Notes under the pieces: model-generated
Told to the model about the DNA's origin: nothing
The model's input: the letters and a program-made list of their open reading frames with translations, nothing else
Database searches by the model: none
Program-made: the position numbers and the translations under genes
DNA from: Malus domestica
Taxonomy: Eukaryota > Streptophyta > Magnoliopsida > Rosales > Rosaceae
NCBI RefSeq assembly: GCF_042453785.1
Contig: NC_091671.1
Span: 8,812,001-8,876,000 of the forward strand
DNA: 64,000 nucleotides
Reading direction: 5' to 3'
Shown: one piece after another, positions 60,167 through 62,408 of the stretch
Numbering within the stretch: the stretch's first letter is position 1
Layout of the letters: every line of letters starts with the position of its first letter

Positions 60167-61148
60167 GTTAACAACCACTATTATTATTTTCACATAAATT
60201 AGACTGCAGTTAGTTTTGCAGAAATTGTGATTTCTTTCATAGGCCATCAATTCATTCAATCAATTCCACCAGGAAATAAATTTCCCTAAGCAAATTTTCA
60301 GTAAATTAACAAAAACAAAACAATAATTTACATAACTAGTAGAATATTCAAATTGTTAATTAAATTTGCAGTTGCATACTTCCTCGGCAACTATATGGAC
60401 AATAAATAATAAAATTAAAGTAAAAAATGAAACAAAATTTAAGGAAATAAGAGAGAGAAAGAGAAACAGAGAGAGAGAGAGAGAGATGGCACTTGGGTTC
60501 TGCTCTTTGTCCTTCATGATGTTCCCATGTCCAACTGAATCACTCAGCAGAGAGAGAAAAATACAAGAAAAAATAATCAACAAAAACTGAATAAAAGCTT
60601 CTAATTGACAATAAAAAGCTTCTACTTTATGGAAATCAGCCATCAGTAGCATCACGGCCGGCCTCCTATTAACCTCAAACAAGAACACAGTCCTTCATAC
60701 AAATCTCGGTTAATATGATTCTATAAAGCAAAATCCAGATAAGACTTGCACATAAAAGCAAAAACTTATCGAACCAAATCAACAATGCACAAAACCAAGA
60801 TCATAAAAAACTCAATTCTAAATAATATAAGAGATGTGATGGCAAAACCCCAGTTTTTGTCCATCTTCTGGTACCTCTTGCAGTCGATCTTCAAGCCATC
60901 TCTAGTGATGGTCAGAACCATCTGGAACTTCTGGTTATCGGTAGAAGACTGGTCGGGATCGTCCCGAGCTTCTCGAACTCTTCCTCGTCCTTCACTTCCT
61001 TGTGGTCACGAGCAGTGGCGGATCCAGGAATCTTACCCCAATGGGTCGCAGTGTAAAAGTTCAAATAAAAATTTAGGATGGAAAAACATATTGAAAATGA
61101 AATCATAGTATTTTCATTCATAATTCATAACGGAAACAATATTACAAA

Positions 61149-61853
61149 CTATAATTGTCCACGACGAGATTTCATATTTTGAAAACGAAGCATTATAGCT
61201 TCATTTTCAATACAAGCAAAAATATCTCTCTCAATATAAACAAGCAAGCTATCACTCAACCATTGATCTCCCATTTTGTTCCTAAGTGGACCCTTAACAA
61301 TATTTATGACAGAAAATGCTCTCTTCACTGAAGCAGTTGCAACTGGTAAAACTAAAGACAATGTAATGAGCAAATATACATAATTGAATACTTGATGCAT
61401 CCTTATCTCCACCATTTTTTTTGCAAGATCACCAATCCCTTCCAATTGAGAGAAATCACTACTGGAACACACATAACGAATAGAAATCACTACGTGTGCA
61501 GCCATGCGTGCCCATTTGTTCCCCATCTTGGCATGCAGTTCAACAATGAGACGTTCTTCTTCAGGAGTAAATGCCCCTTTCTTCAGGTTCGGCCTTAGGT
61601 GATTTGCCCATCGCAACCGGCAGCTTTTGCCACAACGGAACAGGCCTGAGTGCTTCTAAACGGCATTCCAGTTTCCCTCCCCATGCTTCTTAACATACTC
61701 CACCAAAATTGCATCTTCAGCCGAGGTCCATGGCCCTTTCTTTAGAACCATTCCACCATTTCCACTTCCTCCATTACTCTCATCCATCAACGGAGAATCA
61801 ATCTGATCCTTGGACAGCACTCCATCTTCACTCTCATTTGTTGTCCGACTCAT
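61149..61853 (-). pseudogene. GAMYB: GAMYB-hAT fusion frame, one stop short of open
   Basis: From ATG at 61851-61853 the frame reads [20 protein letters not shown], then [28 protein letters not shown], a TAG at 61656-61658 (Gln in the family), [40 protein letters not shown] and [14 protein letters not shown]. This is the N-terminus and most of the R2R3 DNA-binding domain of GAMYB, the gibberellin-response regulator. At 61494 it passes in frame into [47 protein letters not shown] and [14 protein letters not shown], the hAT dimerisation domain. In all, 234 codons contain a single internal stop. Upstream, TTTTTATTCCAG at about 61920 is a preserved acceptor. The final R3 helix ([13 protein letters not shown]) is missing, so normal DNA recognition would be impaired. 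Confidence 0.9.
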
Positions 61854-61958
61854 CTCTTGATTTGTGATCAAAACTCCTACCAAGAGCCAAGACCATGCAA
61901 AGAGCAGGCTGACAACCTGGAATAAAAAGAAAAAAGAAAATGACAATAAACACAACCG

Positions 61959-61991
61959 TTGCAGTAGCTCTTGTTGCAGTAGCTCTTGTTG
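61959..61991. repeat. 15-bp tandem repeat in the hAT element
   Basis: Two copies of TTGCAGTAGCTCTTG followed by a partial third, next to the captured GAMYB intron. Confidence 0.85.
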
Positions 61992-62408
61992 CTCATTAAC
62001 TTCAACTGGTTGTGTTTATTGTCACAAGCTCTTGCTGCTTCTTCTTCCTCTTCCTGCCGCTGCCGAGTCTTCTTCTTCCTCTTCCTGACGAATACCCCGA
62101 CGACCCCAGCTCCAAGAGGTCGCATATGGGAGCTTCAAGGTTGTTTCCATGGTTTCCAAGGGGTCGTGCGACCCCGACGACCCCACTGTGGATCCGCCCC
62201 TGGTCACGAGGGTAGCGCCCTCACCGTCGTTCACGATCATATCGCGCTTACAAAATGAGAAAATGGCAAAGGTATCGTAGTCGGGGTGCTTGACCCAGTT
62301 TTATTGGGCTGGTTTGGTGTGGGATTTGTCCTATCCATTAAATGATGGAAGTTAGTAGATAAATTTTTTTATTAAAATTCAAAGTTTTAAAAAAAATTTC
62401 ACTAATTT

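Follow-up and report, generated by a model that had tools for sequence, protein, structure and literature searches.

A Pack-type hAT element of apple in which a captured MYB exon runs in frame into the transposase tail

The 64-kb stretch of Malus domestica DNA analysed here (C11:8812001-8876000, hereafter the window) contains a hAT element of 1,190 bp (61013-62202) in which a fragment of a MYB gene, which we take to be of the GAMYB type, is joined in one reading frame to the last part of the element's own transposase. With a probability of roughly 0.8, this is a non-autonomous Pack-type hAT that acquired its MYB segment through template-switching gap repair, was fused in frame by accident and has changed neutrally since; its ends, target-site duplications, donor, join, second insertion, scars and base changes were read directly.

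The element is delimited by 13-bp terminal repeats, CAGTGGCGGATCC and CAGGGGCGGATCC, with one mismatch between them, and by an 8-bp duplication (Table 1), and it thus has the short terminal inverted repeats and the 8-bp target-site duplication by which the hAT superfamily is recognised. The octamer GTCACGAG was found three times in the window, on both flanks of the element and at an empty site (20409-20416), which comes from the segmental duplicate pair 19217-24913 / 59771-64000 (~40 kb apart). An earlier interpretation of the window from its letters (the sequence-only reading) had defined the element by the same terminal repeats, duplication and empty site, and its coordinates were found again. 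On the minus strand, the element consists of 169 bp of hAT 5' end, 71 bp of filler, 472 bp of GAMYB-type sequence, 2 bases and 476 bp of hAT 3' end, in this order. The window also harbours a second segmental duplicate pair (27348-30555 / 53332-56749, ~26 kb apart), two direct repeats ~4.95 kb apart that are 97-99% alike, as for a long-terminal-repeat pair (33700-35009 and 38653-39961), and a 177-codon open frame on the plus strand (62406-62939) that presumably resembles a fragment of a Mutator-type transposase.

Table 1 Features of the chimeric hAT element and of its empty target site, in window positions.
Feature	Position	Strand	Remarks
Target-site duplication, left copy GTCACGAG	61005-61012	.	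single copy at empty site 20409-20416
Target-site duplication, right copy GTCACGAG	62203-62210	.	perfect 8-bp match to left copy
Terminal inverted repeat, transposase 3' end, CAGTGGCGGATCC	61013-61025	+	
Terminal inverted repeat, transposase 5' end, CAGGGGCGGATCC on minus strand	62190-62202	-	
Empty target site, diverged in-window duplicate	20409-20416	.	
hAT-family 5' segment, 169 bp	62034-62202	-	98% to C11:37106382-37106550
Filler, 71 bp, between hAT 5' end and MYB segment	61963-62033	-	
Captured GAMYB-type genomic segment, 472 bp	61491-61962	-	98.3% to C2:32578717-32579188
Captured coding exon, 120 codons (N-terminus, R2, first part of R3)	61494-61853	-	TAG at codon 66 in window copy only
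Junction scar GTAGTGATTTCT, MYB/hAT join	61482-61493	-	exact copy of hAT sequence at 61451-61462
Parent-hAT 3' 476 bp: last 112 of 792 transposase residues, stop, 3' untranslated end	61013-61488	-	98% to full-length copies
Fusion reading frame, 234 codons + stop	61149-61853	-	one interruption in window copy; open in copy 2 (L010:4950-5654, minus)

The whole element was searched for in the 651-Mb genome (19 contigs), and the best 40 of 897 candidates were scored. These comprised the window element itself, a second full-length chimera (copy 2, C11:36798813-36800002, 99% to the window element), 37 sequences matching the 476-bp hAT end and a single C2 match to the MYB part. Within the reach of this search, the chimera has two copies in the assembly. 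They differ at 17 of the 1,190 sites, with no gaps, and have their joins and filler in common. Copy 2 is flanked on both sides by CTTGCAAG, an 8-bp duplication of its own and distinct from GTCACGAG, and its surroundings are unrelated to those of the window copy, since the 1-kb flanks of the latter had no match in the 9.9-kb stretch around copy 2 (L010). Other flanks, a separate duplication and the same junctions indicate that the chimera is not an assembly error and that it has moved at least once after the capture. The contiguity of the MYB and hAT parts, and the presence of the MYB segment in some other family copy, were the two points on which the sequence-only reading had made its proposal depend; both parts are joined alike at two loci, and copy 2 carries the segment.

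The MYB stretch was searched for separately, and all 8 candidates found were scored: the two chimeras, C2:32578717-32579188 (98%), C7:4472479-4472946 (93%) and four relatives at 73-75%. At 98.3% over the captured segment, the C2 locus supplies the donor for the GAMYB fragment that the sequence-only reading had supposed to be captured, while C7 was rejected as the source (93% vs 98% for C2). The segment includes the end of a 5' intron with its acceptor TTCCAG, a piece of 5' UTR, whose exon starts at 61916 after that acceptor, all of the first coding exon and, from the following intron, GTA. It is a capture of genomic DNA, since it retains an intron end, an acceptor and the three opening bases of another intron, and a retroposed (cDNA) source was rejected on account of the intron sequence and splice acceptor within the captured piece. 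Reading of the donor gene covered the first coding exon and the beginning of the one after it: at the C2 locus (L009) the former ends in MAAH and is followed by GTAAGT, and the next exon lies 968 bp further on, after an AG.

Pfam recognised two MYB repeats in the fusion, the first complete and the second in part; we call them R2 and R3, and the third helix of R3 the recognition helix. Profile positions 30-44 (of 46) are missing from the second repeat and correspond to the opening 15 residues of the donor's next exon; encoded by an exon that was not captured, the R3 recognition helix is therefore absent. When compared to the plant MYB structure WER, the match spans residues 4-89 of 119. An R2R3-MYB has two complete repeats, each with its recognition helix, and the chimera does not. 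The R2R3 region that had been reported inside the element is thus borne out for R2, which is complete, but not for R3.

The hAT tail of the fusion corresponds to residues 681-792 of the 792-residue transposase read from a full-length relative (L016), with 106 of the 112 residues identical in the window copy and 109 in copy 2. The family transposase contains a DUF4371 domain (247 bits) and matches Hermes weakly (E 0.028), in an alignment that sets its SVERAF motif on ASERTF; the aligned Hermes glutamate is, we assume, the third catalytic residue, Glu572. The window copy has a lysine in place of the conserved SVERAF glutamate, a change shared by 1 of the 25 family copies. The otherwise open transposase frame of L014 (C10:17994000-18003000) has this lysine. 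That frame has 803 codons, and that of L016 has 815. The sequence-only reading had regarded the tail as the hAT dimerisation domain. Its in-frame join to the hAT C-terminal region stands, but a clean dimerisation domain does not: the Dimer_Tnp_hAT profile gave 20.8 bits for the copy-2 fusion and 18.8 for the transposase, both below the curated cut-off of 21.4, and the piece also carries the glutamate aligned with that of Hermes ASERTFS.

The surroundings of 26 of the 37 matches to the 3' end were fetched, the best-scoring ones only, which biases the sample to young, intact copies. Both terminal repeats with identical 8-bp duplications were found in 18 of these 26 (5 of 6 and 13 of 20 in two batches), and were not seen within the fetched stretch in the remaining 8 (L011, L035, L037, L039, L043, L046, L051 and L053). 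Full-length relatives are 3.3-3.8 kb long, except one of 2.7 kb, and L012-L016 have both ends and duplications, so that the family includes full-length members with a hAT transposase, as befits the superfamily.

The joins carry small marks of their own. At the MYB/hAT join (61489-61493), the 12-bp scar GTAGTGATTTCT is an exact copy of hAT sequence lying 31 bp further on, although it could alternatively be a 2-bp insertion plus one substitution. Positions 61483 and 61477, within 12 bp of the join, are changed in both chimeras and invariant in all 25 family copies compared (26 were tried and L053 was dropped for a one-base gap). The filler at the other join includes 17 bp (62008-62024) that repeat, in inverted orientation, captured intron sequence at 61941-61957; the match is exact in the window copy, and in copy 2 the first of the paired sequences has later changed at one base. 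Two units of a 15-bp tandem (61962-61991) also fall mostly within the filler. Assuming uniform bases, the numbers expected by chance are 0.00004 for the 17-bp inverted copy, 0.0007 for the 15-bp tandem and 0.04 for the 12-bp scar. A genome search with an 84-bp stretch around the filler returned the two chimeras only (2 of 2 candidates) and no outside source for the filler. The excision site of the parent element was not found.

We infer from these scars that repair synthesis was interrupted and switched templates, in keeping with the older idea of abortive gap repair for Ds elements. Gap repair within a full-length hAT copy would have left the hAT template, copied 472 bp of the GAMYB-type gene on C2 and then returned to hAT, leaving the filler and small copied scars at both joins. 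The first coding exon would have landed in phase with the transposase tail by chance, for which the odds are one in three. Transposase from full-length relatives would then have moved the chimera in trans, giving the two copies on C11, after which both would have changed neutrally, without function, and the window copy would have acquired its stop. Template-switching capture has been modelled as gap filling and as FoSTeST in the sections of PMC8277862 available. A different origin, proposed for Pack-CACTA and Pack-TYPE elements, has two neighbouring hAT copies flank a GAMYB exon and move with it as a unit; the part of PMC8903248 at hand puts this route forward for Pack-TYPE elements of all superfamilies. 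We consider it unlikely here, and disfavour it as fitting less well than template switching, as the 9.9-kb donor locus on C2 matches the MYB part only and has no match to the hAT parts, and the joins lie inside the transposase gene, at copied scars, rather than at terminal repeats.

The fusion frame runs on the minus strand from the GAMYB-type start codon at 61853, through MYB coding sequence as far as 61494, to the hAT stop codon at 61149-61151. As had been described, the MYB part continues in frame into the hAT C-terminal region with a single TAG (61656-61658), the frame amounting to 234 codons plus the stop. The sequence-only reading had suggested looking for copies without this TAG, and copy 2 is one: it has CAG at this position, and its 234 codons between the GAMYB-type start and the hAT stop are all open. 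Only the window copy carries the TAG: copy 2, C2 and C7 all have C at 61658, and by parsimony the frame of the ancestral chimera would have been open, all three having CAG. The donor site GTAAGT of the parent has become GTAGTG in the chimera, and a transcript could read through the join as one frame; read-through would be likelier than splicing at the captured site, because only 3 of the 6 letters of GTAAGT are kept in place.

Compared to C2 and C7, the two chimeras share a single derived change in the captured segment, its edge base aside, whereas C2 has four private ones. The capture therefore appears to have taken place after the split of C2 and C7 and not long before the two copies parted. 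Since then, the captured segment has gained two changes in the window copy and three in copy 2. The comparison of synonymous and non-synonymous change that the sequence-only reading had put forward could be made over the fusion frame, which has accumulated 6 changes: 1 synonymous, 4 missense and 1 nonsense, against 24/72/4% expected without selection. Of the 5 frame changes found in the window copy alone, 4 are C to T or G to A, as expected of methylated transposons. The frame changes look neutral, with no sign of selection, although with only two copies and six changes weak selection is possible. That copy 2 is open does not speak for its being used, because ~80% of frames are still open after 5-6 random changes.

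The same data bear on whether a new regulator is in the making. The open copy, or the ancestor, would be transcribed into a MYB-transposase-tail protein which, by pairing with hAT transposase or with GAMYB partners, would act as a putative dominant-negative repressor. Copy 2 and the parsimonious ancestor are open, all but 3 of the 112 tail residues of copy 2 agree with the L016 transposase, and frog dm-W offers a precedent, as far as the accessible text of PMC9250109 describes it; but the R3 recognition helix is missing, the tail scores below the Pfam dimerisation-domain cut-off, only 1 of the 6 changes is synonymous where ~80% of random sequences with 5-6 changes stay open, and there are just two copies, one of them broken, all of which makes this reading rather improbable. 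Taken a step further, and with as little probability, the element would have built an expressed gene, the open copy at 36.8 Mb of C11 acting in trans as a mobile, spreading dominant-negative regulator, and in-frame chimeras of this kind would form an unlisted class. The hAT tail may then recruit the protein to transposase, or the R2 half-domain to MYB partners. Since half of R3 is absent and the frame has changed neutrally, a role as a regulator is unlikely as well as unproven. The earlier suggestion of a route to a domesticated regulator loses its footing, as the changes in the frame look neutral.

Captured gene fragments in general can yield small RNAs, and the captured DNA could be a putative source of silencing, or a decoy, against GAMYB or hAT rather than a protein-coding sequence. 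The C to T and G to A changes in 4 of the 5 cases in the window copy would suit this, but the chimera has two copies only, and we regard such a use as very unlikely. Least credible of all, and rejected, is an assembly artefact or the chance nesting of two unrelated pieces, given that the same junctions and filler are present at two loci whose 8-bp duplications differ and that one of the two insertions has an empty site; nothing was found in its favour, and both copies would have to be assembly errors.

Among its other elements, this hAT family has two further captures. One captured-gene element with the same hAT ends was found in four places, on C10, C10, C13 and C7 (L055, C10:32417622-32418462 and flanks; L056; L058; L059), with matched 8-bp duplications in 3 of the 4 and none seen in L059 when checked. 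Its inside is 96% identical to a donor-like C13 locus (L057, C13:10399431-10400228) in which a pattern search detected no hAT ends, and a short open frame inside the element is also present at that locus; the gene is presumably LEA-like. The other is a 940-bp non-autonomous element with matched duplications in three places, whose inside occurs in five places at 98-100% and at a C7 locus (C7:29975448-29976115) at 95% (L028-L030 and L060-L062). This C7 locus sits in a region of similar tandem pieces.

A Pack-TYPE element is defined, in the portion of PMC8903248 consulted, as a non-autonomous DNA transposon whose ends enclose a coding-gene fragment. The window element contains such a fragment and has been mobilised after capture, as its two copies with different 8-bp duplications indicate. 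The packFinder screen described in the same source calls autonomous any element with a transposase match >250 bp; the window element keeps 340 bp of the transposase frame, and is here judged by that rule rather than by a packFinder run. It is, by the published definition, a Pack-hAT, of a variant that the packFinder screen would reject. Gene capture had been said to be much less documented for hAT elements than for MULEs and Helitrons, but Pack-hATs are in print in the available parts of PMC8903248 and PMC8277862.

The maize and rice Pack-hATs of PMC8903248, to the extent that its accessible text presents them, resemble the apple element in hAT ends, 8-bp duplications, captured fragment and movement after capture, and only in the latter is a 340-bp transposase frame in phase with the captured exon. 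Animal Pack-TIRs, as covered in the excerpt of PMC8277862, are alike in capture by hAT, template-switch scars and copies with distinct duplications, but the multicopy frog Pack-hAT-N8_XT captured 5' UTR only, whereas here a coding exon is in frame with a transposase tail. Xenopus dm-W is, from what the partial text of PMC9250109 reports, a truncated DM-domain factor whose DNA binding is raised by a hAT-10-derived exon; it too joins a truncated transcription factor to hAT-derived sequence, but it functions as a gene, its DNA binding has been tested and its hAT part was non-coding, whereas the apple chimera has true transposase code and is known from sequence alone. Vertebrate host-transposase fusion genes and plant DAYSLEEPER (PMC8616336, in the part seen) likewise combine transposase parts with regulators or use them as such. 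They are fixed host genes, which arose through splicing to a transposase or from a whole transposase, whereas here a mobile transposon took up an exon of its host. Kaonashi (KIU) MULEs with a Ulp1 domain, in the available portion of PMC13317346, are also plant transposons with captured host coding sequence beside their own genes, but they are Mutator-like with separate genes, in contrast to a hAT with one fused frame. The whole words hAT, fusion and MYB have no occurrence each in that review, as far as its available text goes. Nothing specific on a MYB/hAT fusion was found in the open-licence literature, which does not imply its absence from print.

Fusions of transcription factors to transposases are known as finished genes (dm-W, vertebrate fusions), and here an early step is visible: a single genome shows the donor segment, the parent family and the two joins, together with one open and one broken copy, and allows the events to be put in order. 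The element also points to a blind spot in screens for captured genes, in which an element retaining some of the transposase frame counts as autonomous and is discarded. If true, in-frame chimeras of a captured exon and a transposase tail would be an unlisted class, hidden by such screens; what the present example illustrates is the ease with which such fusions arise and decay, rather than that they work.
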